A stretch of DNA of 64,000 bases from Diphasiastrum complanatum (lineage: Eukaryota > Streptophyta > Lycopodiopsida > Lycopodiales > Lycopodiaceae). How positions within the stretch are numbered: the stretch's first letter is position 1; each line of letters starts with the position of its first letter. Below the pieces are notes generated by a model that had not been told where the DNA came from, searched no databases, and saw nothing but the letters and a program-made list of their open reading frames with translations. A program made the position numbers and the translations under genes. The DNA is taken from contig CM055095.1 of assembly GCA_029204225.1 (NCBI GenBank), positions 67,605,940 to 67,669,939 of the forward strand. The letters are read 5' to 3'. Shown piece by piece: positions 12,001-61,137 of this stretch.

Positions 12001-15000
12001 AAAAGCGAAAGACTATCGGAGTAGCTGTACACATGAAACCTGATTGACAAATGCACAGTTTTAAATTAGAGTAGATGCACATACAAAAAGAAGACTTAAA
12101 TAGATTTTACCAGACTGAAGAGATCGGCTGTTTGAGACACCATTGCTTTAGCACGAACTATTATGTGACTGGATGGTTCCACTTTGCCCCTCAAGGATGA
12201 TGTGGATGGATACACTGAAATACCCCCCGTTTTACGTCCAATAAGTTGACTCAGTTGCACAAAATCCATGCTTTTCGTTCCCATCTCAAGTAGTGACTGA
12301 CTGAATAAAAGCACACAAGGTTCTAAGGAAATTTCATATTACCTCATACAATATAGCAATAGTCAAAAATTAGATATCACGAACTTGAAAACTCGAATTT
12401 GCAACCAGATTACTGAAACAATTAGATATACCAGAAAAGAGGCACAAATGGAAGTAGGTCACTTCGAACGGTACGCAGGTCAAAGACAACCTCTGTGTAA
12501 AGCACATCATTGGTAAAAAGATCATGGCACAAAATAGTTGAGCCACATAGTTCCCCGACCTGTGGATGCAAGAAAAGAAAAAAAATTTAGAATCAATTCA
12601 CTAGGAAAATGTTCATGTAATGCAATAAGTATTGAATACATGAATAACTCAAGTCTGTCGGGCCAAAACCCTAAACTAACGTAGTGGTTTATCTGCCTGA
12701 CTGACGGATTCAATTTAATGACATTTGTTTTATATATCTAAAAATGCCAATGAAAAATAGCACGCAGCAGAAGAAAGAAACAAACAAAACAGGTTTTAAA
12801 ATAGTGACTGTCCTCAAAACAAGATTATGATTTCTCAGGAAAATTTCGATCCTAATAAAGAAGGGGATATGAACCTCCAAAATAGCGGAACTGTTCCAGA
12901 AACTTACTTATACAGAGGGTTCAAAACCATATATCAAACCCACTGTATTATAGAATAGCACCTGACATAACAATGGAGGCATGGCAATCTTCAACCGCAT
13001 AGAGTCTGCTCAGAAAGTCTTAGACCCTCGGCTCCATGCATAGCACAGACCAAATGCTACAACATTCCCACCCAATTAGTCACATGCACAAAAGTAAAAT
13101 GCACTAAGAAGACAGAAAAGATTAAGCACAAACAAGCTAGCAACTTGGACAAAGATCTTAAACGAGACCCATATGTTCACTAATACAACAAAAATCATCT
13201 CGATGCTGATTGTAGGATAGTGGTAGACGTATCAAAGGACACATTCAATCCTGAACTTCTTAGAGTCCACTAAGAAAGTCTTGGAAAATCAACTCCATCA
13301 TGTATATATAGCACATGCCAAATGCTATGACATCCTCACTGACTCCAGTGGCTCTGAATAGTAGAGATATAGGTGAAGGTACAGTTGATTGTCGTACCGA
13401 GTTGATATCGCTTCTCCGCAGGTGAAGGGCACATGTAGTCATGATGAAGACTGGCACTAAAAAGCAAAGCCAATAACATGAACTCCCTTCTTCTTCGTGG
13501 AAACAAGGGATATATAACTTTCATCACTTGGGCTTGCTCAGAACCTTATTACCAAGCTAGTTGGCAGGCAAGATGGAGCAACATAACAGCTAGATGCAGC
13601 TTAGGCAAATATCTCAAACAAGGACAACATGATCACAATATGGCAAATAATATCCACGTTACGTCTCAGATAGTATCCAACAGCACTGAGATTTCAACTT
13701 TGCCCGCCCTAGAGGCAACGCAAAGCCTAGGACATAAGCTTGTGTCTCTTCCATTGGTCAGAAACAAGCAGGTGATCTTTACACCTGCACCAAATACTTG
13801 CAGGTGTAAAGGCACACTGAGGTTCCCGGACTGCCGTGTGGATGTATTGGAAAGTACAACAAGAGGCATACATTATACTCCTGGGGCAGAGAAACTGGAG
13901 ATATAAGAACTCATGCTCCCATGTTTTGGAGATCAATGCCAATCTTCCGAATTGTCACATTCACAACATGGCGTTCCTGGTCCCAAGATATTTGAAATAC
14001 CTGGCATGCCTAGAAAGTCACATTCCCACATTCAGCCATCACTAATAATATTCGGAAAATGTTTCCCACCCGGAAAACGAGGCCCCGGAAAACGGGGAAC
14101 CACAATTGAGAAATGGGATGGGGAAAATGGGGAAATGCCTTGTCATTACGAATGCAAACTAATGCAAGGTAATCAGGGAACATCCAGGGGGAAAGTGATT
14201 CACATTGAAAGAAAGAGAAGTACTGTTGAAATGAAGTCAACAAGACTCCTTGAAACTGCTAAATTAAGGTCAAAATTTAAACTTTAAATGAATAATATGC
14301 CACTTTTTATGGGAAATATTTCTAGGCATTTTCCCATGACATTTCTCCGAAACATTTCTTCGGGATCTTTCCCAAATTGGGGAAGCTTAGAGTTGGAGGA
14401 AACGCATTTCCCCATAACTATGCGATTCAACATGCTCCCATACTGTTTCATCAATCTCTCTTTAAAGTAGGAGACCTCAAAGATTATTCAGGTGCAAGAC
14501 ATGTTGCTTACTTATCAAATAATTTTCACCCACATGGTCTTGCAACATTCATCTTCCACTATCCAAGCACGAGTTTAACATCATCAAGGTTCTGAACACA
14601 TTTTTTGTGCTTCCTAACATAGGTTATTAAAGGATCTACCTTTGATTTTTTATTCAGGTGCATGGAAGTTCATTAATTGAAGATCCAATTTTTCAGCTCT
14701 TCATCTTCTTTGATTGTCGGAGAACAGATTTTTACCTTTTCCCGAACTCAGTCCACATCTTCTGCTTCTCGATAGTGTTTTCCTGGCATTCTTGGCAACT
14801 ATGGTTCAGAAGGAACTAGTATTGGGTTGTTGTTTTGAGTCATTCATAAGTCATAATGGTGAACTTCATCTCTTTCATTCACTACTGCAAAATTTGTTAT
14901 CTCTATGCAGTAGCTTTCAACAATGACTGGCAAATCCTTCTATTTACAACTTGATTGGTGCTCCAACACACTTCAGAAGATGTTCTTTACGAACTCCAAT

Positions 15001-18000
15001 TCTCTAAAACCTTAAAGCCACCAATTGCTTATATTTAGGTCCAAAATTCCTAAATTTGACTCACATTTCATATCTGCTTTACAGCTTGATGGGGGATCAA
15101 ACAAGCATCCAGCAACATGATTGTTGCTTTCTGGCTAGCTTAGACTTACTAGAGAAAAATTCAAAATGGGGTCAATCCATTTTTTCTCTACACATTAGAG
15201 GTTTTGGCTCACTTTTGGAACATCCTACTGCTGATACCTCCTCTTACTTCATATCTTGCAGTTTCCATATGACGTCATGCCAATTACTCATTCTACCACT
15301 ATTTAGATGCCTTCATCTTCTTTACAGCATTGTAGTCTCTTTGGCAGCATCTCCAGCTAACACAAACGATATAGTAAACAGTATGGGAGGCATGCTTCGA
15401 TGCAGTCATGTCTCACATAAATTCTATGTAGGTCAACTTCATATCACCACTTTGATCTCTACTTCTATCTCACCCAAGCATGTTCGATCTCTAAGCACCC
15501 TCTTCCATCGTGGCTTGTTCTTTCTCTATCATTGTGGAACATACTATTTGTAAGCCTTGTTTTACAAGGTCTGGCTTCCAAGTTCCATCCCCAAACATCT
15601 CTCCTTATTTTTCTACTCTAGCTAAACTTGAAGATGCTTCCCATTCTTTCTTTTTCATATGCCATTCACATGATTTGTGCATATTTAACTCAAGTCTCCA
15701 GTTCTCTATAAATCTTTGTAAAAATCTCCTAGTGTTTGCTCTTCATTATCCATGCCATCAACTATTTTCATCATCCAGCGAAAATGAACAGGCTCCTACA
15801 AGAGAGTTGTCAACTTATTCTTGAGGACAATTATGCTTCAATGCTAGCATAACATTCTTTCTAGTATGCTGCACACTTGCCTTTGTGCTTTAAGTTTCAC
15901 AAATCCTGCTACGGCCACATTATGGAATTATGCAACATCAAAGGGTGTACAGCTGCTTTTGTAAAACAATATCGCTGTATACGTCTAGCCTGGGGTGCGT
16001 ACTTATTTTGTCAACATCATAGGATCATTTGAAAATCTGGTTATCTTATTCATTAGCCACGCTGCTCACTAATTCTCTCATGTGGCATTCTTATTGAATG
16101 TGCATGGCTTGGAAGAGTGTCCTCAACCAACTATTTTCATTCACATCATCATTGAGCAGCCATCCTTGTCAATTTTCAATTTTTGCAGGTTATTTTTCAT
16201 TTTGCCATATCACGACTTCTGTGGCATTAGCATCCTCGTTATTGTAACATCAGCATCTTCATTTTGTAGCATTGACATCTCCATATTGCAATATCAGCAT
16301 CCTTATTTCGCGGTCCACTTTCAGTATTTTCATTTTACAACATCAGCTTTCAAAGATTCGTCCTTATACTGACAATGAGTACACTATGTGTTTTGAATTG
16401 GGAAGATTTGTAGGCAAGTCACTTGTAAATTTTATGTAGAGTACCTGGACCCATGGGGTCACACAACTTAGCATCATTTAAACCTCCTAAAATACAACCT
16501 GAAAAGAAGGTATCAAGGTTGTGGCAGAGTTGGGGACTTAATCGATAGAACTGCAAGTGTCAATTAGTGAGACGGGTAAATTATTTGGGAGAGTAGCTCA
16601 ATAGCATAGCAAGCTCAGCATAGTGAGATATTATTTCATGATTTTGTCATACAGCAAGAGCTCTTTTTATCAATGAAGCTTCATTTCCTTTGGTTTTCAA
16701 TGTCTCTCTTTCTCGTTTCACTTTCTATGCTCTGTGAGATTTTGTTCATAAGTTAAATCTAATTGCAAAAGCCCAACCTATCCTTGTGCCATAGTTGTAG
16801 CGGATTACAATCCGCTGCAGTTGCAGAAATTAATCTTGGAGTATTTCCTACCACAAGGGGTAGGATACAAGAAAGCAACCGTGAAACAAGGATAGCACAA
16901 TGAATCTATTCTCTATAGTTTCTCCATGTCCATGATGATGAAAGCAAGATTTTTACGGTCCCCCTTAGAGAATTTCAAGGCAAAGCAAAAAAATTTCAAC
17001 GAAAAGTGATAAAAAGAACCTTTTTCTTTTTGAAACCCAAACCTTGATTTCCGTAGTGCGTTCTGGATCAGGGTTTGCAACCATGCCTTGTCGCATGTGC
17101 TTGTGAGGAAGAACTAAAAATTTGATGAGCAAAACAGCTGTAACCCCCTCCTTTGAGTTTCTACTTCACCCTAATTGAAGTGCTTCATCTCTTGGGTACC
17201 TTAATTCATCAGTAAGATTTCTTCACTGTAAGGCCTAATCTTCAAAAGGCTCCTGCTTTTCTACTTGCATGATTGAAACTTCCAGCAATCTTCTTCCCCC
17301 TTCCATCAGTTCTTGCTGTCAATTGTCCCTTACGCAGTTAGCATTCTCTGTCTGGATTTCATTTATTTACCAAGTTCAAGACATGTGACCTATTTGTTAT
17401 ATCTCGATAAAGGTGAGTTGAAATGTTGTGGTAGGTGCTAAGTGGCTGTGCTCAGAGTAGGATATCATTTCACCTTCTCAACTCCATCAAAAGCTGAGTC
17501 TTTTACCCAAAAATTGATCAGATGTAAAAGCTTTATTAAAAGGGTGTAGTGGGTGGCTCCAATCATTTCATCTTCTTAGGTGACCCATCAATTATTAAGC
17601 AGCAGCAGCTTCACCAGAGTCATAATGATAATGAACACAGCTTTGGGTAGATAAGCAAGTAAAAAAAATGAAGGCTCCTTCATAAGTTATAACTAATCCT
17701 TCAATAACAGAGAATTACTCACAAAACTTGGAAAGACTTACTTCATTTGGAACACTAATAGGCTCCTTTGGAATGTCGGACAGAGAGAGACAAGGAACAG
17801 CCTTCAGCGCTTCAGGAGGATCAGGAGTTTCTTGTCGTCTCCTAAGCTCTTCTGTTGCACGGGCTAACTCTGCAAGGTCCTCCTCGGTCATACTTGCTTT
17901 CACTTGCTCAAGTCGTTTGCGTTCAAAATTTTCATCTTGTGCTGCTTTCTCTCCATCTGGCTGAAACATTCCAAAAATAATTTAGATCCACCTCTCCCGA

Positions 18001-21000
18001 GTACTATCTGAGAAGAACAATTCGTAAAAACTTCACTCCAATCTAAGTTAGGATTAAATGGCAGCTGAACCTGGTGGAGAGGTCAAACTCAAGATCTCCC
18101 TGATTACCATACCTGTAGCTCTACAGTCACACGATGTTGATTATCCAGAATGTACGTTTGAATTAATGGTGAGAAAACTGCCTTTGTGCCCTCTGCTGCC
18201 AAACGTGCTTTCAACGCAGCTAAAGGCTGGGAAAATTTTAAAGGCTCAAATGGATCTCCACCATACAACCATTTTCCCTGCATAAGCAAATAATACGAGT
18301 CAATGTATGTATGCTCACTGCCAAAGAAAGGTGTCTAGCATATTTTGAGGTTGGAAACACAGATACAGGTTGGTCGTAGAATAACTCGCACACTAGATTG
18401 ACAATAAGGGTACAAGGGATGAGTAGAAAGAGGATGAAGACAAAAATGAATGTACAACAAGACATCAGCAAGCCAAAATAGTCTTGATTGGAAAAAAAGA
18501 GAATATTACGGACCACAGAACGAAGCATCAGCGACAAGCCTCTTGGAAAAGAGCCTGTATTGTTTTCTCGCAATGAGAACTCAATTGTGTTCATTGACGA
18601 CTCCACAGCTTCATCCGTAAAGCCCTCCTCTATGAGCCCCCTTAAGGTTGAAAAGATTAACTCTTCAACACGGGGAATATCATCATGGGAAACACCCTTA
18701 AGTCCCACACTGAATTGTGGCTGAAGCAACTCATCTTCGATGCCACCACCTACAAGGGCTTCTCCTAACCCACTTTCCAGCAATGCTTTCCTCAAAGGAG
18801 ATGCGGGAGTCCCCAGCATCAAATGATCCAAAAATCCCAGTGCTAACTCTGTCTGCAGATCCAGAGGGTTTTCTGAAAGCAACCAATTTAAACATACCAT
18901 GTGCTTTTTCTTGGTGTCACCAGCCTCACCTACAGGAAACTTTGCCACAACCCTTTTGGGTTCAGAAAACAGCTTCTGAACCTTCACTTCTGAATCCTCG
19001 GCTGCAGAATTCCTTTGGAACTCCCTTAAGTAACCTGGACTTAACATTTTTCAACAGTCAGTCACCAAACGTCAACAGCAAAGCAGAATAAGGCCGAAGT
19101 ATTAACCTTAATGCAGTCGATCACAAAGTGACACAAGGATAAGTGTAGGAGGAACAAAAGTTTAGTTGAATGTTCAAGTGCAAAACAAGTTTGTCTATGG
19201 ATCTCATAATAACAAACATTTAAGCTCATTGACTTGAGTGTCTTTCCAGGTTTACCTGCCAAGATTCACAGCCAGATTTTTTCAACTTTTTGTGAGAAAC
19301 TCTAACATGAACAAATTACAAGACTAAGTGGTCAGTAGTAATGCTTTAGAATTTGCAGTGCCGATTATCAATTCAAAAATATTGTACAGACCCAAAAATC
19401 TCCATATTATAATGAATAAAAGTGTCAAGTACAGTCCTACTTGTCTTGACAAAGCCAAACTGGCTACACGGCATTCCTAAATCATGTAAACAAGTGTGTG
19501 TGTCTATCCAAACCTAGTGAAAAACAATTGGCTAGTCTTGATACCACATAGTACTTATACACCTTGAGCCAGTTGTGGGATGAACAAAGCTGGAGTGGTA
19601 AAAGCCACTCTAAAGTGCAGGAAGAATTTAGAAAGCTGAAAGAATAAGAGCCAATGCAGCCAAGAATGAAAGTATTTTTCTGTACCCATTAAACTGATAT
19701 ATGCTTGCATGAGCTTTTTGAGGTGTACACCTCAGTCATCAGAAATAGAAACTTTGTGGTCTTCCAGTGTTGTCACTTATGCTCCCACAAACTGATTGTT
19801 TTCATTGAAGAGCGACATTGCAAAAGAGCTCTTATCCAGTACAAGCGACATTGCAAAAGAGCTCTTATCCAGTACAAGTGAAGTAAAACAATGCGGATTC
19901 CGGAAAATCATGAGTACAAACCACTCTGTCATTGCAGATGGCTCAACAAAATATTTACAAATTGTTAGATGCTCGCTTTGATTGGAAAAACTCCATGCAT
20001 TGCATGCCTTCAATCTTCAATGAGGTAAGCTGCAGATGGCTGACTTTGAGCTTACCTTATCACAGCACAGTTTGTGCATACCAACAATAACGACAAAAGA
20101 CATTCAGTGGCAAAGAAATCGTAAAAGATTCAAACAATTTGATTCAGGAATGTTCTGGCCACCACAATTGTTGATCTCAAGATGCAGAATAGGAAAAGAT
20201 GTGTTCTTTGAAAAAGTGGAACATGGACGTTGCCAGATTGGAAAGAGAGCAGTTCGGCATTGCTGGCAGCTCAAACAGATCCTATGAAAGTGAAAAGCTC
20301 AACTTTCTTTTCTATCAAAAACCTTCTGAACTTTGCTGCTATATTCAAAACAAAATTGTCTGCATGTTTGGACATTCACTAAGTCATGGCTTCAACGATG
20401 TGGCATATCAAAATTGTGGTGCTTGGCTTCTCTCCTCAGTAATATATTTTTCAGCTGTCTCATGATCAGGATTCAGCTAATATACTTTAGTGTTTGATTG
20501 AAATAAAACACTTTATCAACAACCTCTGTAATACATTAACCTGTGAAATTCATTTGAAGCAATAGAACTGACGTAGGCATATTGAAAGAAGATTATGGAA
20601 CAACATAGGATCAAAAAGCAACGCACCACTGATTATCCTCAACCTCTCATTTGGATCATCATTTCCGTAAAACCATATACGAGCATTACTAGGATGATAA
20701 AACTTCCGGTGAAAATCCTGTAAATCGATCAAGTAAAGTTAAATGCAACAGATCATCACAAAGATATGATTCCTCCAAATTGCACAGGACTCAATACATA
20801 TTTCATACACAGAATTGAAATATGTTATTCCAAATTCAATCAAGTATGCCTGTAGCCCATAGTCTACAACACCAGCATTTCTCTTCATGTAAATTTTTCA
20901 TCCAGCTTAAAATTTGTACCCTAAACCATCGCAAACTATTGCATCAATACCCAAAAATAATTGCTATCATAGTTTTCAGAACTTGCTTAAGTTGGTGCTA

Positions 21001-24000
21001 CAAAAGACAAAAATCAGAACCTATCAGCAACACTCAAATTCAAGAAGATAAAGTTAAATGTGAGCACGGTGTATAAGTGGCAATGTATTGGGGCCAAGTA
21101 TACAGATTTGTCAATGGAGGCGGAGGGGCACAAGAAAGGCCTTCGCATTAGAAGGAACCCCATGGAGAGTTGTATAGGAAGAAGGTCAGGAAGTCTCCTA
21201 TTCTCAACTTCCATATAAGCTCTCTTCTTGCAACGAAGTAAGGAGTAATATTGCTTCTTGGTCTCTTGAAAAAGATGTGGAGAGGAGGTTTGAGTGTGGA
21301 TGATTTCCTAAGGAAATTCCTTGCATACCGCACCATATCAAGTATTACGAGGAAAAGTGCATCTTCGTTTCAAAAGGTGTCTTGAACTTGGGACCAAAGA
21401 AACTTCGGATACCAACCTAACCAACTAACCAACCTCGGAGATACAAGGGAAAGTGAAGCAAGATGGCTTATAAGACTTAGAAGGGAAGGAGATGGATGTT
21501 GCAATATGGGTAAAGATGCAAGTAAGCAGCCTGTGTATCCAAGGAGCTTTCATAAGGGGGAAAGAAGGGAACAAAGAGAGTCCCAATATAAAGGGGGGGT
21601 GTACGAGGAACCAAACGTATATCATGCCATGCAATCAAATCAAAGGAGGGGCTGATGGTGGATGCAAAGAAGAAAGGCCAAGTCAGAATGAGATACAAAT
21701 GATCAGATAGGGTGGCAGGAGAAATTGTGAAATCTGAGATGTGGAATGAAAAATAGTGATCCCACAGGGTAGTTAACTACACTATGATACACTGTGACCT
21801 CCACTATGTGGGTGACAAGTGAAATCACTTGATATCCAAAAAATTGCACGCGTATACTTATGGAATCCAATGTTAAAATACACCAAATCAAAAGATCGAC
21901 ATGCATTGTTTACTAGACTCTAGAGTCTCGGGAAAGAGAACAATATGAATAGGCAAGCATAGAATTCAATGGATCCACAACCCTAGCAAACGCATGCAAG
22001 ATCCTCAAGCTAAGAAGGACTGTTGTTCTCAGTGCCACAATGTCACAAACCTACAACATCCAAGAGCAATGGCCATCTCAAAGATTAGAGAAGAAACTAC
22101 CTTGACCCATAAGTTAATTATGATTGTAAGGGGTTTGGGGACCTCATGTGCATATGGTCATAATTAATGGTTGGAGGCCTAAAACTCATGATGGTGGAAT
22201 TTTATGGGTCTATCAGTGAATCATAGGTGTTAAATTTACACAAGCTAGTTTGATTTTTCCACTTGTAAATTGTAATGTGGCCATGTTGTGGGATGTCACA
22301 CATGCCAAAAAGTATAGGATACTCTTCATAAGTCTTATTCCTAACCTAGCTTTGGAATGGCACCTTTGAAATGAGGCCAAATTGTGCATAGATAGGCTAG
22401 AGAGATTCTAGGAGCTAAAAATAGCAGTTTTTACATTGTTTTGGATCTCAAGATCTCGACCCCCAATTAGGGCGGATCTTATGAGAGAACCAAAGTCTCC
22501 AAACAAGCTGCCATCTATAAGCTTCCTCTCTAACTGTATGCCATGTTGGAATATCAATCCACACTCTAGAGAGAACTGTCAAACAGGGCGGATAGCTCAG
22601 TGGTAGAGCATCCCATCCGGTATGAGGGAGGTCCTAGGTTCGAATCCTAGTCTGTCCATCCATATTATGATTTATGGATTTCTAACATGGTATCAGAGCC
22701 AAGTTAGACCTAACAGTTCATGGTGTCAAAGCCATGGTTAGGTGGCCCAAGTTGTGGGGCAGGTGACAGCTAGGACCCCAACCCAGTGTGGCTTGAGGGG
22801 GGGTGTTGGAATATCAATCCACACTCTAGAGAGAACTATCAAACAGGGCGGATAGCTCAGTGGTAGAGCATCCCATCCGGTATGAGGGAGGTCTTGGGTT
22901 CGAATCCTAGTCTGTCCATCCATATTATGATTTATGGATTTCTAGCATGCCAAAGTTCAAAGACATCATCTCTCGTATCATCAAGGCTACACAACATGGG
23001 TCTTCATATGTGATTAGAGAATGATGTGTCATGTATGTGTCTCGATATAAGCAATAGTAACTTCCCCTGATCATGTAGTATGTTGGGAATCCAAACATGG
23101 AATGGTTGTCATGATTCATCCTTAATTTCTCCAAGTGTACAGATCTGACAGATCTTGCCCTCTCTGGATAAAAACGTCCTATCTCAATATGTAGCCGATG
23201 TCTAAACTATCCTAGTATAAATCGAAAGCCATGTGATAGACCAATATTTAGGTATCTAGGGCAAATAGGACAGCCCGCAATCAACCTCCAAAAACAAGAT
23301 TTATAGTAGAGAGGTTCCACCCCAAACTGTCCATCCCAAACTTTATGCCAATACGACCTGTATATACGTTGGTGAATATGGTGGTGCATGCCCTTTAGAA
23401 ACAATGATAAAGAGATACCAAGAGAGTCAAGTATAGGTACTGCCTAGGAATACCATGAGAGATGGAAACACTGACTATGCAATATTCGTGATGACAGGCA
23501 AGCCGTGTAGGGATATTTGGTCTCATTGATATCCATCTGTGCCACCATGAAAAGGACTTCAAGGTACGCATATGAAGAGACTACCTCCAAGGTGTGGCCA
23601 TCCCATAAAAGCTCATGTCTCTGCATGAATGCAGGTGAGATATTGAAGACCATAACTTGGTCTTCGCAATGTTCACTGTCAATCCCTAATGTGAACAAAA
23701 ATAACATAGTACATCCAAGTGTCTCTGTAATCCATCTCTAGACCTCAACATGTGTACTACATCACTGGCATAAAGCAAAATAGAAATCAACAGATCATAT
23801 AAAATACATCCCTCTCCTCCATCCTGCCAATTTTTCCTCTCCAGCTCATCAAGATAAAGTCCAAACAAGGTAGGAGAGAGTGAGCATCCCTACTTCACTC
23901 CAATGGTACTATCAACTGACAGTGTGATAACCTCCTCTGATTGGAATCTCTCACATAGAACCATAATGGCCAATAATGTATGTGATTGGAAATCAAGGTC

Positions 24001-27000
24001 CTCTAATCTCTAGATAAGTAAATGTCTCGAAACAGAATCAAAAGCCTTTCGAAAATCCACAAAACAACAATATACCTGCTCACATCTGGATCTAGCCTCC
24101 TCAATAATCGATCTCACTGTGAAAACATGGTTGGTACACGGATAGAAAAAGACTAGCAAGAAGCAAAGAAAAATGTTAAAATGACTCCTAACTAGAAGGA
24201 GCCCATGAGGTAATCTACCACAAAATCATCAACGGCCGCCACTGTGTGGGTGACAGGTGAAAACACTAGATGAAGGCCACTGAAGTAGACCATTGAAAAT
24301 GGCCAGCTCATGAGCTTCTCCTAGATGTAAGAAATGCTCGCCATGATCTTTAATAGGCATGTCCTCTTCCGCAGAGTGCCTCAAAACACCTAGCTCATCA
24401 GCTCATCATTGTCTGAAAAGATGCCCTCTATCAGAGAATCTGATAATATATGTTGAAAGGTTTGTGTACGGTGAGTCATTTCTATCTATTGAGTGAGAAG
24501 ATGTGCATGGTGGAAAATAGCACACTACAGTATGATATCTCTATCTAAGTCTATATTCGTCCTTTGAGTCAAATCCAACGGTATATGGCTTGATTTTCCC
24601 CTTACACTATCTCTAGGCCACTCTGAATAACATTTCTATATAACTCTCATGTGTCTTTGTGAGAAATAGAAGATCTCCACTATCTATGAACTCTATCAAA
24701 ACACCTGCTGAGGATGAGGTATTCTTTCCGTTATAGTTCCAAACACCAAAACATAATGAAGATGGGTGGGTCTCCAGGTTGCTCCCACAGCCAGAAGACC
24801 CAAAACCATATTTCTTACCATCAATATATTTTACTTGGCCATCCTTGTAAAATACTTTCCTTCCTGATGGTTTGGCTTCTTTAAACAGATTTTTTCCGTT
24901 CTGACACTTGAAAGAAAGTAAGATCGCCATCCAGTGTTACGAGACCGTAACAGTACCGACCCAACAGTACTTCTAGGTGCAGCTAACCACCGGAGGCAGA
25001 GGACAGTGTGAGTCAGAGGCATGCATGCATACCATGCAGTAGGTATGAGGGCCATTAATGCCCATGCAGACACATGCGTGATAGTAGGGGGCCATGCAGT
25101 CCTTCAGTGATGGGTTAGGACCCCACATGTATCAATAACCCATGCATGCAACATGAATGGTGGGTGTCAACAGCAACTACCACCTACCACGTCCATGCAA
25201 CCTCACACTGGGCTAAAGGGGGAAACTATAAGAGAGTGCATTGGCTGGGTGGATCAGACTAGCTTTGCCTTCTTCGTGGTTATGTTGTTCCTAACATCTA
25301 AGAAGACACGGGTGCGTTTCAACTTGTTCTTTAACCTCAATGTTGATCGTCTCTCCTCGAGGTTTTTAGAGCAAATGATCAACGTGACTGGATGACTCCA
25401 TACCTACCTAACACTAATCTACACCGCAAATAAGTATTGGGATGATTAGAGATACCAATTTCTAAACTAGTGGAATTGTCCTCGATAAGTTCAATTTTGT
25501 AGTATTAACAAGAAATATAAATTGTGTGAAAGTTGTCACGGTACATTAGTATTATTTTCCACAATATTAGTATTATTTCCACATCAATTCACTATTGAGC
25601 TCTGTCTGTTCTTGAGCTATTTGATGGTAAAAGTATGAGTTGAATGAAGTTGGTACAACACCATTCTCAGTTTATACACTTTTTTTGTGAATTTATTGAT
25701 TATTGTAGTGATTAAGACATTGTGTACTACGACCATACAAATTCATGTGATGTTGTTAACCAAATCTCGTAAAGGGAGCATTGTAGACTTGGAATTTCTA
25801 CAACAAGGAAAATGAATCAAATAAAAAAGCATTCACACCTGAAACTCATGAAAAGTAAGATCTGGAATTGCATTAGGATCCCCTCCACTATCAACACTGT
25901 AAGCATTTTCTGGAAATACAGCCTGCAAGTTACCCGATTTAATACATTAGTTGTCAATTGTCAAACAAATGAAATAGCAATTGTGATACATCGCTCAATT
26001 TTTGTGATATGCATAAGTTGTTAAAGCCCACGGACTGGAGGATTACTCTAGGGCAAGCCTTAATAATCACCAAAAAGCGTGAAGTAAATGCAAAATGAAT
26101 CACACAATGTGAAAGAGAAATATAAGGAGAAGAGGTATGCAAGCATTACTAATGACCAAAATGCATGGAGTAAATGCAAAATGAATCGCACAATGTGAAA
26201 GAGAAATATAAGGAAAAGAGGTATCGCTAAATGATTCCATGTCAATGGTCCAAATTGCTTTGACAACACACTATTCTCCATACTCATTTATGCACTTCTT
26301 CATTGAGACTCCATAAGAAATGAGATTTTTGGGATATGGGCATTTTTCAAGCAAAAATCTGTTATTTCAACTAGCATCAAAACAGTAAAAAAAACACTTC
26401 CACAATGTACACAAAGACTACTCCTTAACTGGCGGAGATGGCGGGGGTGCCCAACCTCAAACAACCTGTAAAGTACGTTGGGTAAGTTATGTGTCCTTCA
26501 TCACGATTCGATGCAACATTGGGCTTGACCAGAAGACCAAGAGATGGCTCATCCATAGCAGAATTCTTGACCAAGCAAGCTCAAAAAACTAAAAAGAAAT
26601 TACAATATCTTGCAAGGCTTTGAGACCAGTTTGAAATGGATATACGCATTGAACCCTTCTCCAATCAAACTCTCCGAATTTATGGATGAGTATAATCATC
26701 AGAAGATCATGAGACATGCCAAAGACATTAAGAGTTGGCTTCAATAAAAAAACATTTCATCCAAACATCAGAAGCAAACGAATGAGCCATTTACAAGAAA
26801 AACTTCATATGCTAGACCTCTAGTGTGCAAAATGCTTATTAGTGAGCTGAAACAGTGCCAATTCAGTAATATCGAAGTTAAATTAAGATAAAGCCCAAAA
26901 ATAAACACGTAAAGTGAAACATTTATAAGGTCCACTCACAAGAAATCAAAAAAATACAATTTTGATTTCTTCTCCCACTTCTCCAAAGGCTTGGGAGTAG

Positions 27001-30000
27001 AGCCAATCAAATGCAGTAAGATCAAGACCAAGTAACCAATATACTATCACAAACTTGATTTCAGAAGTCAAAGATGATATGTATCAAAATGTTATCAACA
27101 TATTGACCGAAAAAGTCCAACTTTCTAGGAATAGCATATACTTTTCAATTTGTCTTTCCAACATAGCAAAATTAGTCAATACCTGTTGGCAAACACGCCC
27201 AAGAACATTGTCAGGTTGCGAATAAACACCTTTCATCTCATTAAAAACTACCCCTGCACCAAGATAAATTACTTGATAATAAGCCACAAGAAAAACTCGT
27301 ATAACTCAACAAGATTCATGTGAATAACATGCCTCTCAAGTTGAAGAATGCTTGTTGAAATTCAAGGAACATGCATAAGACAAACTTTTATAACTTTTTC
27401 CTCTTTTGATTGCATCGAGAATATGCAAACATTAATCCAAGATCTAAGAAACCTAAAAAAACTTCTTTATCTACTCAAATGCTACAGGGGGTGTTTCACA
27501 ACATATTCTAGCATTAGTCAGCTAGCCGATGTTGATCCCATCACTTGATGAGAAAGAAATCCAAAACACCCACATGCTTGTCATAGCTGTGATGGAATCT
27601 CACATGCAAATACCAAACTCAACTGGTTTCCTTATGTATCATAAAGTAAGTAACAAACTCATGACAACTCATTAGAAATCTTCAAGCATATAAAAGAGGA
27701 TTTGTAGAGATAGAAGAAAGAGAGACACAGAGACAGATTTGTTGATGTCTTTTAGGTACCCAAAGCTACATAAGAATGAAAATAGTACATTTCAAGTTTG
27801 TTCATGATATGGGAGTATCGAACATCTTTAAAACAAATCATAGTTGCAAGCCGATTCGAATCGGCCGATTCGTCCCGATTTGTACCAGCTAGCTCGGTTC
27901 GAATCGGGGAACGGTTCGAACCGTTTGTTTTTGTTTTTTCTAGGGGCAAAAAGGGGTTCTAACCAGTTCCAAACAGTTCGATAGTTCGAACCGCGGTAGG
28001 CGGTTCGAACCATAGTTTGATGCAACTATGAAACAAATAAAGTTGATCTAAACAAAAAGCGGCATGAAAAGCCTATAGTACAATAATAAGATAAAAAAGA
28101 AGAAACTAACTAGTCTATAAGTAAAAGCATAAACAAACATTTTGTTTTACGTTTGCCCAAGTACTATTGTTTTAGTAATGGCATATATTTGACTCTTTTG
28201 AACGTTCCTAGAAGATGATTCATAAGGAAAGCTTGAAACAAGCCAAGAAAATGAATTTAACTACAAATAGATAACATAGTTTTCACATATCACAAGTTAA
28301 TCACATCTCTAAAAGAGTGAATGCTCAATCGTCCTATACTCGGAATGCTTTCTCATCTCTTGTTTCTTCATCTGCTTATTATTGCCTATCTTTCAATTGT
28401 CCGATCACAAGATTCAATTCACTAACTAATTAATCATGTCATGTCATGGTGACATTAATGCGCTCAGCCTATTTCACCTAAGTAGCTAAAACTATGTTTC
28501 TCCTGAGGTTCTTATATCTTGGGACCTACTCTTGACAAAACTCCCAATACAACTAGTCTAGAAGGTGCTATGATACCAGGTTATGAATACAATATCCCAT
28601 GGAGCAACATGTAAGACTAATGGATAGCAACCTCATAACCATATAACAATCTTATGTATAATCAAAGTGTTAACGTCAAAGAACTAAGCACAAAAAGAAT
28701 TGCAAACCCTCTTCTCAAAAGAATTGCATATGAGTCTCTTGCAAAGAGCTGAAGAACCAAATCAATCATTTGTAGAGTGCTTGCAAACTACTCTTCTTAT
28801 AATGTTTTGAGAACCCTTAAAGAATCATTCTAGAAAGGTTACGACATACTCTAGCTTCTTTAGCATGTCACGAGTTCCAAGGGACCCATGGGCCAACTCA
28901 ATAAGTGGCCACATAATTAACAATATTTAAACGCTCCAATTAGATAATGCCCCTAAAGAAGGCCCAATCATATGTCCATGATTATGACCAAATAAATGTC
29001 TTGAATGGAACCGAGTGACCAAATACATGGACGCCATGTGATTAAATCCTCTATTGAAATGTTGCAGTCAAAACATAGTACTAGAATCTCATTTATTTCC
29101 ACAACACAAGTACTTCAAGAAGAGTTGCAAATACTAATTATCACTAATTCTCCTCATTGATTGTGCTGCTTGTGATTTTTCTTTATGTTGGTTAGTTTGA
29201 TATATGTTTCATTACTAATCACTTATTTAGGTGGCCATTTCAGTATATGATGACTCTAGATGTACCTTTTGCTATTTGTTGACTCAAATTTGCACTTTTG
29301 GCACTTCATTGCCCCCAGCAGAAAAAAGCTCATAGCTCCTCCCATGTAAAAGGACAATAGCGTAAACTCTCCGCTGTTGCTCTCTTTCTCTTTCATGTAT
29401 ATTTTGTGAAGTGAGGCTGGATGGCAATGTACTTAAAACTCATAGGTTTTGCAAAATTTGAATCAATTGATGAAATATTTTCCGCATTAGGAACAATTTG
29501 TTCCAAAAATGGGTGGTTCCAGCTATCATTTTGGAAACACTATGTTTCCATTTTTGTGTAAAGGAGCTGATTTGAACCGGACAGCACAATTCAACTGAGA
29601 CAAGTACTTGGCTGCAGATTATTGTCTAACACCAAAGGCTGATCAATCGAACATATGAAAGCTCTTTGTTTCATCTCAAAATTTTGAAAGTTACCCCCCA
29701 ACCCACAAAATTCCAATACCCAACTTGCATAACAGAAAATATTTCTCTCAAATCAACATTATGGCCTTCAATGGATCAACAACTCACTCCAAAATTGAAG
29801 ACTATGCCACTCTTCGACTGTGTTCAGCCAACTCACAAAAATATTTCCATAACTTGCAAATACGAATAGCATGGAAAGTGTTGATTTTGAGTAGACGGCT
29901 AAGAAGCTGAAGCAAATAATGAACACATCCTACAGAAATCCTCAAAAAGTAGCAGACATGACGACAAAACAGAAAAAATTTGTGAAGCTCAAATGTATTG

Positions 30001-31382
30001 TACTGTCTAAGGCTGCTACATGGAGAAATACCCAAGACCTAATAAACGATGAGGACAACCAGAATGGAGGAGCCAAGCAGCCATTGATGCAAACAATGGC
30101 TAGAACAGAAAGGGGAGCCAAGTTTGAAGATGTATCCATGTGTTTACATGCACAAAAAGCATGGTCAAACAATAGTTGCAAATTTACACAAACCTTTCAA
30201 AGTTAAATCTTCGGATGGATCGTTGAGTTCGTAGTGCCATCCCTCTTGCTGAAAAGTCTGAACTTCATCTATGCAGCGTGGATGAAAAACAGCATCCAAA
30301 TATACATCCACCAAATTATAAAAGTCCTGCACGATGCATCAGATGTATGGTGGGGATGTTAATACTTGAGACAAGCCAAACAATGGGGCAGTATGATTTG
30401 CATACCCCACCTAGGAATGTTACACGGGCTCAAAGTAGACTGCCTTATGACCGAATTGCAGACTTTAGTCACTTACCTTGATGTTTGTGGATGCAACCGG
30501 ATAGCACGTCCGGTCAGGGTACGTAAACGCATTCAAAAATGTGTGTAGGCTCCCTTTCAAAAGCTCAACAAAAGGCTCCTTCAAAGGATACTTTCTAGAT
30601 CCACAAAGGACACTATGCTCGAGAATGTGTGGTATGCCCTTTGAATCTTTGCTGTGAATACCAGACGAAAAGTTTAGATCATTGTAACACGTTAAGGGAC
30701 AATGGCATTCCCAATTCCAACGCCAATGTGTTGCCTAGTCAAGCTCTTAATCTCATAGTACTAGTTCAATCTTTATTAAGTCTTGTGTATAGTTTTGGAT
30801 TACATAGCAGTCCTACTAATGATAATTACCCAGCTCATAATCTTTCAATAAAAGCATGTCAAACCATTGCACACATAACAGGTGAAATTTGAGAGGAGGA
30901 ATATGGCACACATTATCATTGCCCCAGTAAAGAAAATCATGAGATGTGGCAGCAGCAATTTTCCAAACTAGCAAAATTGGCATAAGATTATCCACTTACG
31001 GTGGCGTTCGAAAAACAATCCCAAAGACCTTATTTTCATCCTCATTCACAACAGAAATCACCTCCGCTCCTGTATCTTCGTGGCGATATAAAATCGCAGT
31101 TGATTTGTATTCCTCAATAAACTGTTCTTCAATTTTTGCAAAGCCAAGTTCCTTGGCAACATCGGCATTGGAGTCTGTCAATTTCAGATCAAAGTGAAAA
31201 AAAGGATCCTTAAGCCAGAGCTTGCGCAATTGTACATCAGGGTCTACTTCGGCTATCTCAAACCTACTTGAAAATGGAGCAGCAAACATAGAATTTGTGT
31301 ATCTGGACTTTGGAGAAATTCCCGAGAAAGTAGAATGTATAAAGAGTGCATGCCCTTGTGAATCCAATCTACAAGCATTCAT
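1..31382 (-). CDS. PREP: Presequence protease PreP, 14 exons, 3' end beyond the window
   Basis: Zinc metalloprotease of family M16C. Known plant members degrade cleaved targeting peptides and other short peptides in the mitochondrial matrix and chloroplast stroma. Exons in transcript order: 31382-31000, 30651-30477, 30326-30194, 27253-27183, 25922-25839, 20717-20627, 19034-18514, 18277-18113, 17960-17742, 12559-12432, 12300-12111, 526-443, 340-243, 85-1. All 13 junctions are GT-AG, and joining them gives 809 codons without a stop. The inverted zinc motif HILEH lies at about residues 136-140 and the distal glutamate ligand (NEMKG) near 236, the same 96-residue spacing as known for Arabidopsis PreP. 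About 270 C-terminal residues are expected beyond the left edge. The start is the only ATG after an in-frame stop in exon 1; a further upstream exon cannot be excluded. Introns total about 29 kb and carry transposons. Confidence 0.95.
243..340 (-). CDS. PREP: PREP exon 13
   Basis: A 98-nt exon encoding SRLTGGGHAISASRMDAK and NVAGWVSEQMGGL. The acceptor is CATGCAG and the donor GTATAT. Confidence 0.94.
443..526 (-). CDS. PREP: PREP exon 12
   Basis: An 84-nt phase-0 exon encoding VLQDVQFEDQQRFKQFVAQS and KSRME, which continues exon 11 across the 11.6-kb intron. The acceptor is ATATAG and the donor GTAAAT. Confidence 0.93.
527..3266 (-). other. PREP intron 11, part downstream of the gypsy element
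   Basis: AT-rich intronic sequence with no supported gene. From 2571 to about 2760 it holds one copy of a dispersed repeat that recurs at about 22100-22310. Near 2965-3050 a tRNA-Met primer-site-like string (tgtatcagcatcc) lies close to a purine run (ggaggaggata), suggesting the remains of a small LTR element. Short repeats resembling 3029-3110 recur near 9193-9300. Confidence 0.6.
3267..3952 (-). repeat. 3' LTR of the chromovirus (686 bp)
   Basis: Matches the right LTR over its length. It contains an internal, roughly 73-bp imperfect tandem duplication (about 3578-3725) in which the phrase gaccaagtgtccca occurs twice. It has one copy of the terminal 92-bp segment that is duplicated in the right LTR. 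Confidence 0.92.
3953..3966 (-). other. Polypurine tract of the chromovirus
   Basis: On the minus strand this reads TGAGGGGGGAAGGGG and directly adjoins the 3' LTR, the expected place for plus-strand priming. Confidence 0.8.
3963..4643 (-). pseudogene. Gypsy integrase C-terminal region and chromodomain, broken
   Basis: The first reading frame (4643-4260) encodes integrase C-terminal sequence (LPLLDFAYNDKKNVRTKMSP, FELNYG, VGDMVFLQ). The second (4238-3963) starts HPVFHVSRLKR and runs into a chromodomain-like segment (RVLDRRERRLRN, REYLVAWHG, ATWE). The two frames are separated by a frameshift and stop near 4240-4260. In chromoviruses the chromodomain directs integration to particular chromatin. 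Confidence 0.88.
4644..5026 (-). pseudogene. Gypsy integrase catalytic core, frameshifted
   Basis: Encodes MDFITNLPRTQ, the first catalytic Asp, and VFDRDTRFTGNFW, the second. The region with the catalytic Glu (ETDGQTERVNQ) lies in another frame after a one-base shift near 4740. It is then followed by a stop near 4642. The core fold is recognisable but not encoded in one frame. Confidence 0.88.
4951..6027 (-). pseudogene. Gypsy RNase H and integrase zinc-binding domain
   Basis: The frame opens in the RT-RNase H connection (LRSFLGLAVFYRKGV, PLTDML). It continues through RNase H (VVETDASDIAVGAVL, HEKELYAI, YTDHNTLRYF, VADALSR) and the integrase HHCC finger (HLCHDSPSAGHLG, HCLKCRVNKAER). It ends at the frameshift leading into the integrase core. 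RNase H is the best preserved part of the element. Confidence 0.92.
6024..6710 (-). pseudogene. Gypsy zinc knuckle and protease fused to the RT thumb remnant
   Basis: Encodes the nucleocapsid knuckle CFGCLGRHRWKEC (CX2CX4HX4C) and an aspartic protease with LILFDTGSSHNIINSALIK. About residue 180 the reading passes directly from post-protease sequence to RT-thumb sequence (KKEITYLGFIV, ADGIKPDPQK). The fingers and palm of RT, including the catalytic YxDD block, are missing. The junction is near 6165, and the frame stays open across it. Confidence 0.88.
6714..7540 (-). pseudogene. Gypsy gag, frameshifted
   Basis: The start at 7540 encodes MDPLGGASTEILRIEQ with a short helical region. After stops near 7300 a second frame from 7217 carries the gag core (KATYRLQETAQRWWREIEK, FAENWIPLDEKNQVMQ, YREALMRIPEE). 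The two parts are out of phase by one base, so no full gag is made. Confidence 0.85.
7541..8031 (-). other. Untranslated leader and primer binding site of the chromovirus
   Basis: No reading frame is supported here. At about 8015-8031 the minus strand reads TGGTATCAGAGCAAGG, complementary to the 3' end of initiator tRNA-Met, directly next to the 5' LTR. Confidence 0.85.
8032..8799 (-). repeat. 5' LTR of the chromovirus (768 bp) with an internal tandem duplication
   Basis: Matches the left LTR. It is longer because a segment of about 92 bp (about 8606-8697) is repeated at about 8698-8790. The unit contains caggccggtgacttagcc and ends in the terminal phrase gggacagggagtaaaag. Some 20 bp present in the left LTR near 3578 are missing here. 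Confidence 0.92.
8800..12110 (-). other. PREP intron 11, part upstream of the gypsy element
   Basis: No gene is supported. A C-rich run lies at 9291-9314 and a short A-run near 10030. The 9193-9300 stretch resembles 3029-3110, so it is probably another repeat fragment. The rest is AT-rich intronic sequence. Confidence 0.6.
12111..12300 (-). CDS. PREP: PREP exon 11
   Basis: A 190-nt exon encoding QSLLEMGTKSMDFVQLSQLI, GRKTGGISVYP and SSHIIVRAKAM. The acceptor is ATTCAG and the donor GTAAAA. The next intron, 11.6 kb long, contains a gypsy element. Confidence 0.95.
12432..12559 (-). CDS. PREP: PREP exon 10
   Basis: A 128-nt exon found by reading the strand for the missing segment between exons 9 and 11. 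It encodes CHDLFTNDVLYTEVVFDL and LLPFVPLF, as in plant PreP. The acceptor is CCACAG and the donor GTATAT. The phase matches both neighbours. Confidence 0.92.
12560..17741 (-). other. PREP intron 9 (5.2 kb)
   Basis: No gene or intact mobile element is recognised. Related stretches occur at 13010-13070 and 13267-13340. The segment 16140-16370 is repetitive around the phrase catcagcatc. Reading frames here are short and carry no known domain. Confidence 0.6.
17742..17960 (-). CDS. PREP: PREP exon 9: helical hinge between the two halves
   Basis: A 219-nt exon encoding a charged helical segment (ASMTEEDLAELARATEELRR) followed by QETPDPPEALKAVPCLSLSD and IPKEP. In PreP this region lies between the two M16 halves. 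The donor is GTAAGT, followed by 5.2-kb intron 9. Confidence 0.95.
18113..18277 (-). CDS. PREP: PREP exon 8
   Basis: A 165-nt exon encoding GKWLYGGDPFEPLKF and KAVFSPLIQTYILDNQHRVT. It is separated from exon 7 by 236 bp and from exon 9 by 152 bp. The splice sites are ATGCAG and GTATGG. Confidence 0.94.
18514..19034 (-). CDS. PREP: PREP exon 7, largest exon
   Basis: Contains 521 nt. It encodes KKKHMVCLNWLLSENPLDLQ, LGFLDHLMLGTPASPLRK, SGLGEAL and FSLRENNTGSFPRGLSLML, which follow plant PreP closely. The acceptor GTCCAG has a weak polypyrimidine tract. The donor is GTCCGT. Confidence 0.95.
19035..20626 (-). other. PREP intron 6 (1.6 kb) with a 33-bp tandem duplication
   Basis: Intronic sequence without a recognised gene. 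At 19812-19877 a 33-bp unit beginning gcgacattgcaaaagagctc occurs twice in a row with no visible change. Confidence 0.75.
20627..20717 (-). CDS. PREP: PREP exon 6
   Basis: A 91-nt exon encoding DFHRKFYHPSNARIWFYGN, typical of the M16C family. The donor GTGCGT and acceptor TTACAG fit the phase of the neighbouring exons. Confidence 0.93.
20718..22440 (-). other. PREP intron 5, part downstream of the LINE
   Basis: No gene is seen. The stretch 22095-22310 is the second copy of a dispersed repeat also found at 2571-2760; both copies contain gaggcctaaaactcatgatg and end near a tgtcaca phrase. Confidence 0.6.
22544..22687 (+). repeat. 5' LTR of the TRIM
   Basis: The LTR has 42 nt before the tRNA-like module, 72 nt of module and 30 nt after it. 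The tail contains a perfect 7-bp hairpin, ATCCATA (22658-22664) pairing with TATGGAT (22673-22679) around an 8-nt loop. Confidence 0.93.
22586..22657 (+). tRNA. tRNA-like sequence in the TRIM 5' LTR (probably a tRNA pseudogene)
   Basis: The acceptor strands GGGCGGA and TCTGTCC pair over seven positions with two G-T wobbles. The D arm is GCTC-AGTGGTA-GAGC. The T arm CTAGG-TTCGAAT-CCTAG pairs perfectly. The A box TAGCTCAGTGG and B box GGTTCGAATCC fit the polymerase III consensus. The anticodon arm is abnormal: the best fold is CCCAT-CCGGTAT-GAGGG, with one A-A mismatch, C instead of U at position 33, and one extra nucleotide before the stem. A working tRNA is therefore unlikely. No T-run terminator follows within the LTR. 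Confidence 0.55.
22688..22700 (+). other. Primer binding site of the TRIM
   Basis: TGGTATCAGAGCC is complementary to the initiator tRNA-Met 3' end and directly adjoins the 5' LTR. A degenerate second copy (tggtgtcaaagcc) lies about 30 bp downstream, at about 22720. Confidence 0.88.
22795..22803 (+). other. Polypurine tract of the TRIM
   Basis: GAGGGGGGG immediately precedes the 3' LTR. Confidence 0.85.
22804..22947 (+). repeat. 3' LTR of the TRIM
   Basis: Differs from the 5' LTR at four transition sites: one before the tRNA-like module, two in its T stem, and one in the terminal TCTAGCA. It is followed by the target duplication TGCCA. Confidence 0.93.
22846..22917 (+). tRNA. tRNA-like sequence in the TRIM 3' LTR (probably a tRNA pseudogene)
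   Basis: Same module as in the 5' LTR. Two transitions in the 5' side of the T stem replace Watson-Crick pairs by G-T wobbles (TTGGG facing CCTAG), so pairing is retained. The A box and B box are unchanged. Confidence 0.55.
24931..25838 (-). other. PREP intron 5, part upstream of the LINE
   Basis: No gene is supported. It includes a local run of catgcatg-like motifs around 25020-25150 and AT-rich sequence up to exon 5. Confidence 0.6.
25839..25922 (-). CDS. PREP: PREP exon 5
   Basis: An 84-nt exon in phase 0, encoding VFPENAYSVDSGGDPNAIPD and the start of the LTFHEFQ segment. The acceptor is TTGCAG and the donor GTGTGA. It is followed by 5.1-kb intron 5. Confidence 0.94.
25923..27182 (-). 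repeat. PREP intron 4 with an 86-bp tandem duplication at 26053-26224
   Basis: The intron holds no gene. Inside it two adjacent copies of an 86-bp unit (26053-26138 and 26139-26224) begin gcaagc and share the phrase gtaaatgcaaaatgaatc; they differ at several positions. Confidence 0.75.
27183..27253 (-). CDS. PREP: PREP exon 4: distal zinc ligand
   Basis: A 71-nt exon encoding GVVFNEMKGVYSQPDNVLGR. The Glu of NEMKG is the expected third zinc ligand. The acceptor is GTGCAG and the donor GTATTG. Confidence 0.94.
27839..28030. mobile_element. hAT-type MITE in PREP intron 3
   Basis: A 192-bp non-coding element with perfect 10-bp terminal inverted repeats CATAGTTGCA and TGCAACTATG. It is flanked by a perfect 8-bp target duplication AAACAAAT (27831-27838 and 28031-28038). 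An 8-bp duplication together with a CA-start terminal repeat is diagnostic of hAT elements. The interior is crowded with the palindrome TTCGAA in gattcgaatc and ggttcgaacc contexts, so it should fold on itself. Confidence 0.88.
28564..29100 (-). repeat. Possible decayed LTR with primer site in PREP intron 3
   Basis: On the minus strand TGGTATCATAGCACC (28578-28564) resembles a tRNA-Met primer binding site. Sequence upstream of it (28579 to about 29100) looks like an LTR, with a TATATAAG-like box near 28800. No partner LTR and no coding region were found, so limits and identity are tentative. Confidence 0.35.
29101..30193 (-). other. PREP intron 3, part nearest exon 3
   Basis: AT-rich intronic sequence. 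Short reading frames occur on both strands but none carries a recognisable domain. Confidence 0.55.
30194..30326 (-). CDS. PREP: PREP exon 3
   Basis: Encodes DFYNLVDVYLDAVFHP and TFQQEGWHYELNDPSED, both PreP signatures. The acceptor is GTGCAG and the donor GTTTGT. It is followed by 2.9-kb intron 3, which contains a hAT-type MITE. Confidence 0.95.
30477..30651 (-). CDS. PREP: PREP exon 2: catalytic zinc-binding motif
   Basis: Encodes the inverted zinc motif HILEH, followed by HSVLCGSRKYP and KGSLHTFLNAFTYPD, the most conserved stretch of the family. The two His are expected to bind zinc and the Glu to be catalytic. The acceptor is CACAG and the donor GTAAGT. Intron 1 is 348 bp and intron 2 is 150 bp. 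Confidence 0.95.
31000..31382 (-). CDS. PREP: PREP exon 1: transit peptide and N-terminal strand
   Basis: Contains 127 codons plus 2 nt. The first ~55 residues are rich in Ser, Arg and small residues, as expected of an organellar targeting peptide. They are followed by conserved PreP sequence (ELGFAKIEEQF, NEDENKVFG, FRTPP). An in-frame TGA lies just upstream, so the ATG at 31382 is the first available start. The donor is GTAAGT at 30999. Confidence 0.88.
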
Positions 31383-59700: not shown

Positions 59701-61137
59701 GAGCATGTTATAGCAGCTGCCGGGGAGGTACATTTGGAAAGATGTATAAAAGATCTCAGAGAGAGGTTTGCTCGTGTGGAACTGGAAGTTTCTCCACCTT
59801 TGGTGGCTTTTCGAGAAACTATCGAGGAAGAAGATGTGAACCAGATCGATGGCAGTAAGCCTACACCTGTGCCAGCTGAGTATGTGGAATCTACTACCCC
59901 TAATGGAAGATGTACTGTACGTGTGCATGTTACAAGACTGCCGATAGGTCTAACTCAGATGTTAGATGAGCATGCTGATTTGTTGAGGCACGTGGTGGTT
60001 GAGAAATCTGGCTCTTCTTTCTGGGAAAGAAGGAAAGGAGTGCTAAGAAATGGAGCGGGAAATTTTGAAGATCCAGTTGCAGTCCTCAAGTCACGCTTGG
60101 TTGCTGCCGTTGATACTGAGAGTGCCAGCAACAACTCCAGGGATGACAAACCTAAAAGGAGTGAAGATACCAAATGGAGAGAAAAACTTGAGCGCATCTG
60201 GGCACTTGGGCCACGGCAACTTGGACCAAATCTACTCCTTAAACCCAGTTCTGAAGTTCTTGAAAGGAATCCTACAGTATCTAACAATCTTCTTAATGTA
60301 AGTGTTTTTCGAGCTGAAGTTGCTGTAGTAAGAGGATCTGCACGTATCTCTGAAAAATTAGGGCTGATTGCTCCAACCGAACATGAGGGTTGCAGTCAGT
60401 CATGGCAAGCAGCCTCTGCATCACTTTTGATGGAGGCAGAAAGTCTTGAAAACAGTGTGGTTTCAGGATTTCAACTTGCAACAGCTGCAGGACCACTTTG
60501 TGAAGAGCCTATGTGGGGATTAGCATTTGACATTGAAGCTTTTATAACAGGCAGGGAGGATGGGGCTGTTCAAACTGCGAATGGGATACATGAGGAGTCT
60601 GGACAAGCAAAGAACTCTGGAGTAGATAGATATGGCCCTTTTTCTGGGCAAGTGATGACAGTAGTGAAGGAAGCTTGTCGCTCTGCGATGCTGGCAAAAC
60701 AACCTCGTATTGTGGAAGCAATGTACTTCTGTGAGTTGAGTACAACTGCTGAGCATCTGGGTCAGTCCTATGCTGTGTTGGGGAAGAGGAGAGCGCACAT
60801 TTTAAAAGAAGAAATGCGAGAGGGCACAGGAATGTTCACTGTTCATGCCTTCATGCCAGTAGCTGAAAGCTTTGGATTTGCAGATGAATTGCGAAGGAAA
60901 ACATCTGGTGCTGCTAGTCCTCAGCTAATGCTCAGTCACTGGGAACCGTTATCTCAAGATCCGTTCTTTGTCCCGAGAACCGAGGAAGAGCTTGAAGAGT
61001 TTGGAGATGGATCCAGTGTCCCACTTAATACAGCCCGGAAGCTTATTGACGCTGTGAGGAGGAGGAAGGGCCTACCTGTCGAAGAGAAGGTTGTACCACA
61101 TGCAACAAAACAAAGAACTCTAGCCCGAAAAGTCTAG
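56721..61137 (+). CDS. EFL1: EFL1-type ribosome-assembly GTPase, two exons, complete (1070 aa)
   Basis: A GTPase related to EF-2. In yeast (Ria1/Efl1) and animals it works with SBDS to release eIF6 from late pre-60S ribosomal subunits in the cytoplasm. Exon 1 is 56721-57242 (174 codons) and exon 2 is 58447-61137. Exon 1 encodes the G domain: G1 AHVDHGKT at residues 35-42, the RAITMKSS switch near 77-84, G3 DSPGH at 99-103 and G4 NKID at 153-156. Exon 2 holds the insertion typical of EFL1, EF-2-like domains II to V ([81 protein letters not shown]) and the conserved C-terminus [12 protein letters not shown] to RTLARKV. Length and ending match plant homologues, so the gene appears functional. 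Confidence 0.95.
57243..58446 (+). other. Single EFL1 intron (1204 bp)
   Basis: The donor is CAG|GTAGAC at 57243 and the acceptor TCCAG ends at 58446. Splicing joins MRMQ to [13 protein letters not shown] in phase 0, as in plant homologues. No other feature is seen inside. Confidence 0.9.

Follow-up and report, generated by a model that had tools for sequence, protein, structure and literature searches.

The window, a 64-kb stretch of genomic DNA from the clubmoss Diphasiastrum complanatum, contains a presequence protease-like (M16C) gene on the minus strand at positions 12431-30272. Within one intron of this gene, between the coding blocks at 25925-25839 and 20726-20610 (both on the minus strand), the sequence at 22544-22947 is a 404-bp TRIM in plus orientation, antisense to its host gene. 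By BLAST of the element against the window we found no second copy within it. The window also contains a broken Gypsy-type LTR retrotransposon (4951-6713, minus strand; protease, RNase H and integrase zinc-binding domains by Pfam) and an EFL1 reading frame (58429-61137) that is 100% identical to O6H91_04G126800 of D. complanatum.

The two LTRs of the TRIM, at 22544-22687 and 22804-22947, are each 144 bp long, with TG...CA ends on the 5' copy, and they differ at four LTR positions (35, 91, 93 and 142). They enclose an internal region of 116 bp (22688-22803), too small for a protein gene, which begins with a primer binding site (PBS), TGGTATCAGAGCC (22688-22700), and ends with a polypurine tract (PPT), GAGGGGGGG (22795-22803), directly 5' of the 3' LTR. 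We take the PBS to be of the initiator tRNA-Met type. A perfect target site duplication (TSD), TGCCA, flanks the element at 22539-22543 and 22948-22952. The sequence thus bears out the original prediction as to the element's length, its LTRs, PBS and PPT and its perfect 5-bp TSD.

Each LTR contains a tRNA-like module on the plus strand, at 22586-22658 in the 5' LTR and 22846-22918 in the 3' LTR. ARAGORN calls both as tRNA-Thr(ggt), and they score 53.0 and 46.6 bits respectively against the Rfam tRNA model RF00005, above its gathering score of 29, so the tRNA likeness proposed in the original prediction passes the covariance-model check suggested there; its length of 72 nt for the module is corrected to 73 nt. 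These two are the only Rfam matches at gathering score in a cmscan search of the whole window. The boxes of the window element were assigned by the full box A and box B consensus sequences. A box A-like sequence, TAGCTCAGTGGT, lies at 22593-22604 and a box B-like sequence, GGTTCGAATCC, at 22637-22647 in the 5' LTR, and their counterparts in the 3' LTR are at 22853-22864 and 22897-22907 (all plus strand; cores as in PMC10886601).

The element is not a chance arrangement, because it recurs at 98% identity and nearly full length in at least 40 other places among the matches listed. The whole-element search of the genome listed at least 47 matches, which is a lower bound as the best 40 of 1,483 candidates were scored. 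A 21-base pattern from the start of the LTR, with up to three mismatches allowed, occurs in 1,940 places genome-wide (968 + 972), as against 31 (16 + 15) for a reversed control, and a search for the 11-base sequences on either side of the module, matched exactly and 60-90 nt apart, identifies 1,102 LTRs (548 + 554), as against none for the control. We fetched the sites from the whole-element search together with 19 C1 regions, hand-picked from the first 100 LTR-start places. Before counting, we dropped loci that were the same places as others (L009 and L010, which are L003 and L004), nested or overlapping loci (L006 and L012, inside L043 and L044; L045, which overlaps L043), loci with duplicated flanks (L002, L013, L019, L035, L038 and L039), and L061, whose flank resembles that of L060 as judged by eye. 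Subtracting 12 partial LTRs from 110 LTR hits leaves 98 full LTRs; the set of 105 modules used for covariation includes L061 and excludes the duplicated loci.

Perfect 5-bp TSDs flank 30 of the 37 single elements fetched. Six pairs have common flanks and so are duplicated loci; counting each pair once gives 31 independent single elements, 24 of which have perfect TSDs. The two LTRs of an element differ on average by 3.17 of 144 bases (35 pairs), which fits recent copies. The family is real, well-formed, abundant and recent. It also forms tandem arrays with shared LTRs, at L023, L043 and L044. In the L044 array (4626-5765), a deletion of approximately 16 bp on the 3' side of the module is common to three LTRs and absent from two, so that different LTR variants occur together in an array. 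At L060 and L061 (C1:38.305M and 38.468M) there are single LTR copies that are cut at the same end and whose flanks look alike by eye; the region seems to have been duplicated.

The tRNA-like module is a feature of the whole family. All 75 LTR modules at 34 close-copy loci pass the RF00005 gathering score (34.6-53.0 bits), ARAGORN called a tRNA in 86 of 87 LTR modules in the 40 close-copy loci scanned, and the module was matched in 18 of the 19 hand-picked C1 loci. Among the first 100 listed LTRs, chosen by their flanks alone, 94 have an intact box A, 71 an intact box B and 67 both, and a regular-expression search found both boxes intact in 81 of the 98 aligned LTRs. Rather than being confined to one copy, the module is present in nearly all LTRs examined, and most copies retain both boxes; the original prediction had named the opposite outcomes as fatal to it. 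The exceptions are broken LTRs: in L059 the truncation point is LTR position 46, only a few bases inside the module; in some other LTRs it also falls within the module; and one middle LTR of the array L053 has lost most of the module by an internal deletion. No LTR in which the module's flanks are neatly joined was found among the LTRs of the fetched loci.

Using a module pattern that excluded the upstream bases of this first family, we reached a sister family of tRNA-LTR TRIMs, which forms arrays at two loci: C2:74.60M (L092 and L095, the latter at C2:74597500-74603500) and C7:6.11M (L096, at C7:6109500-6113500). In its majority sequence the LTR is 153 bp and the internal region 73 bp, and the PBS is the same as in the first family. 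The tRNA model makes seven matches to L095 and L096, at 27.2-45.7 bits, of which three reach the gathering score of 29; ARAGORN called no tRNAs in these two regions. One LTR of L096 is inverted relative to the others. Between the two families the module is conserved better than any other LTR segment, with 62 identical residues in 71 aligned columns and an identical box A in the two majority sequences. Aligning the LTR upstream of it takes many gaps (score 3.3 sd above that of letter shuffles) and the LTR downstream is barely alignable (1.7 sd above shuffles); the internal regions align at 6.2 sd above shuffles.

The search for module relatives outside the first family listed 100 of 105 pattern hits, and we read the surroundings of about 45 of these 100 (30 loci and 11 regions; L095 and L105 overlap L092 and L077), the view of the rest being of 27 letters each. 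They comprised first-family copies with altered flanks, the two sister loci and, in two places, a satellite-like repeat with a first-family fragment; no SINE or source tRNA was found among them. The satellite-like arrays, at C10:31626000-31635000 and C1072:42000-47500 (L097 and L098), have a unit spacing of 971-997 bp, and each unit contains part of a first-family LTR including the tRNA module, most also with the start of the PBS.

TRIMs of this kind have been described before, although the original prediction was aware of no TRIM family with a tRNA in its LTRs. Kojima 2024 (PMC10886601) named TRIMs with tRNA-like LTRs Helenus and reported the arrangement in fungi, animals and one plant host, the lycophyte Selaginella moellendorffii; according to that paper, Pol III transcription of Helenus itself is not validated. 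The clubmoss element has the structural features by which Helenus, or TRIMp3, elements are recognised (PMC10886601). It is a short TRIM with two LTRs and no coding capacity (404 bp, with LTRs of 144 bp and an internal region of 116 bp); each LTR carries tRNA-derived sequence (RF00005 in 75 of 75 modules) with box A (TRGCY..YGG) and box B (GGTTC), which occur together in the 67 of 100 and 81 of 98 LTRs mentioned above; the PBS and PPT stand at the ends of the internal region; and it makes the 5-bp TSD seen in plants and fungi (perfect in 24 of 31 independent single elements). High copy number, reached by Helenus in some hosts, and tandem arrays, as in LTR-11_DR among Helenus, are further likenesses (PMC10886601). 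The clubmoss element differs from Helenus-1_SMo in the lengths of its LTR and internal region (144 and 116 bp, as against 120 and 85 bp) and in its host family, Lycopodiaceae; the comparison is one of structure.

Other known elements are less similar. Cassandra TRIMs also have a small-RNA-derived Pol III module in the LTR, the analogy drawn in the original prediction being supported, and PMC7215508 reports the same PBS, TGGTATCAGAGC, and tandem arrays; Cassandra's module is 5S rRNA, whereas that of the clubmoss element is tRNA-like. We rejected a relationship to Cassandra or 5S because the window has no 5S match at gathering score, only RF00005. Ordinary plant TRIMs and SMARTs are alike in size, structure and shared-LTR tandem arrays, and in their enrichment in or near genes, as set out in Gao et al. 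2016 (PMC4717578), in whose main text 'tRNA' and 'polymerase III' occur zero times. In Culex, the term 'tRNA-like' in an LTR context refers, in PMC3286476, to tandem tRNA copies at the PBS, which is a different thing. A bacterial or plasmid origin was set aside; one weak plasmid match (Curtobacterium) covers 15% of the element, at its tRNA part. In the open-licence literature searched we found no other report of a tRNA-LTR TRIM in a plant, and no title or abstract on Diphasiastrum TRIMs. The Helenus-type family of D. complanatum is new, and its host is the second in the lycophytes, the kind itself being already known. Also new is the presence in one genome of two diverged families in which the module is the most stable part of the LTR.

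The anatomy of the element, its recent dispersal with 5-bp TSDs and the occurrence of the module in both LTRs, across a large family and in its diverged sister, are direct observations. Pol III transcription from the module is plausible, and we think that the element is probably a non-autonomous miniature LTR retrotransposon of the Helenus or TRIMp3 kind with a Pol III-driven cycle. Pol III would assemble on boxes A and B of the 5' LTR, start near 22586, read through the 5' LTR and the internal region, which contain no TTTT, and then through the 3' LTR, and stop at a T-run in the flanking DNA 3' of the element. With such a start and such read-through, R would extend approximately from the start of the module to the end of the LTR, leaving just some 42 bp for U3. 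Reverse transcriptase and integrase would come in trans from an autonomous LTR retrotransposon; initiator tRNA-Met would prime at the PBS, the strong-stop DNA would jump to the 3' LTR, the PPT would prime the second strand, and integration would generate the 5-bp TSD.

TTTT is absent from the window element and is found inside one of 40 two-LTR elements. The first TTTT downstream of these elements is at a distance of 2-883 bp in 35 cases, and there is none in the fetched flank in five. The absence of TTTT permits a full-length Pol III RNA but does not prove it, and it is unremarkable by simulation (P ~0.55). Against simple read-through, the majority LTR of the sister family has a TTTT between the module and the PBS, where Pol III would tend to terminate prematurely. 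We identified no autonomous partner. A candidate beside the array at C5:69.59M (L043, L045) was rejected, as by eye the neighbour looks to be an independent Gypsy element having LTRs of its own. The array there is a 5'-truncated TRIM array, and it is adjoined in L045 by a Gypsy-type gag and separate reverse transcriptase/integrase fragments (377-2500 and 3832-5494).

It is fairly unlikely that the module is instead a passenger, that is, a tRNA-derived piece such as a SINE head that an LTR acquired by chance and that was then amplified, transcription being by Pol II from the LTR as in an ordinary TRIM. What speaks for a passenger is that we detected no constraint on the module within the first family. 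Among the 98 full LTRs, sites of the module in CG or CHG context have approximately 0.065 changes per site per LTR, and outside these contexts the rate is higher in the module than in the flanks of the LTR (0.0088 versus 0.0054 per site per LTR). The original prediction saw a hint of constraint in two T-stem changes that it assigned to one LTR. There is in fact one in each: relative to the family majority, the 5' LTR has G93A (position 22636) and the 3' LTR has C91T (22894). Each change occurs in 11 of 98 LTRs, the window element's included, and both are deamination-type changes at CHG sites that happen to keep G-U or A-U pairs. In the set of 105 modules (69 distinct), 97.0% of stem cells are paired, compared to 96.9% after shuffling, and 113 of 500 shuffles score at least as high in covariation, so the aligned copies have no compensatory changes beyond shuffles and we rejected compensatory evolution within the family. 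Pairing is kept by 61 of 77 stem deaminations, compared to approximately 63% expected from sequence context, an excess that is confounded by shared ancestry. The LTR flanks are depleted in CG, but we do not take this to prove that the module is under selection, because a recent capture would look alike and because the sister family's internal majority sequence contains CGs. However, the copies examined are mostly young, and young copies changing without visible constraint is what is expected after insertion whether the module is a promoter or a passenger. A passenger also fits poorly with the module being the best-conserved LTR segment between the two families, identical in box A, and with the same arrangement having been reported in fungi, animals and Selaginella (PMC10886601).

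Comparison between the families bears on a further reading, that the present role of the module is chiefly that of a folded structure in the RNA, serving for instance RNase P/Z processing or packaging, and not that of a promoter, which we consider very unlikely. In 10 hand-picked modules, five per family, analysed without the anticodon stem, 93.0% of stem cells pair, a value equalled or exceeded by four of 500 shuffles, and the covariation score is reached by nine of 500; at pair 7-66 one family has A-U and the other G-C. These figures are inflated by there being two related groups only, and one inherited change is counted many times; with two such groups the between-family signal is weak. Pair 3-71 is broken in all five sister rows, the count of pair types is below that of shuffles, and single sequences show no excess fold stability in either family (z of -0.96 and -0.54 in the first family and 0.06, an ordinary value, for one sister module). 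An apparent covariation in the anticodon stem between families was dropped, the stem being shifted by one base in the alignment. Still less probable, to the point of being hard to credit, is that the LTR reading is accidental, the modules being working tRNA genes or the repeat being a SINE or a tandem tRNA cluster. ARAGORN and Rfam do call tRNAs, and tRNA-derived SINEs have a tRNA-like head with boxes A and B, but the clubmoss element adds LTRs, a PBS, a PPT and constant 5-bp TSDs, its 144-bp TG...CA direct repeats recurring with these at many independent sites. Nor do the modules have the canonical arm lengths and stable isotype of a functional tRNA gene: there are 24 nt between the D and T arms (counted by eye), where 23 is usual, and the isotype called by ARAGORN shifts among Thr, Pro, Ile and Arg with small changes between copies.

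The clubmoss TRIM is a second plant example of an LTR retrotransposon with what looks like a tRNA-type Pol III promoter and, in the open-licence literature searched, the first from a host other than Selaginella. Both plant hosts so far known to us are lycophytes, and at least two sister families in this genome keep the module where the rest of the LTR has turned over. One can imagine a lycophyte-wide Helenus lineage that dates from the last ancestor shared by Lycopodiaceae and Selaginellaceae and is maintained by selection on the Pol III promoter, an idea that we regard as unlikely at present. The family is abundant and recent enough for tests in living tissue, and its modules can make tRNA gene counts too high, as shown by the ARAGORN calls in 86 of 87 LTR modules.
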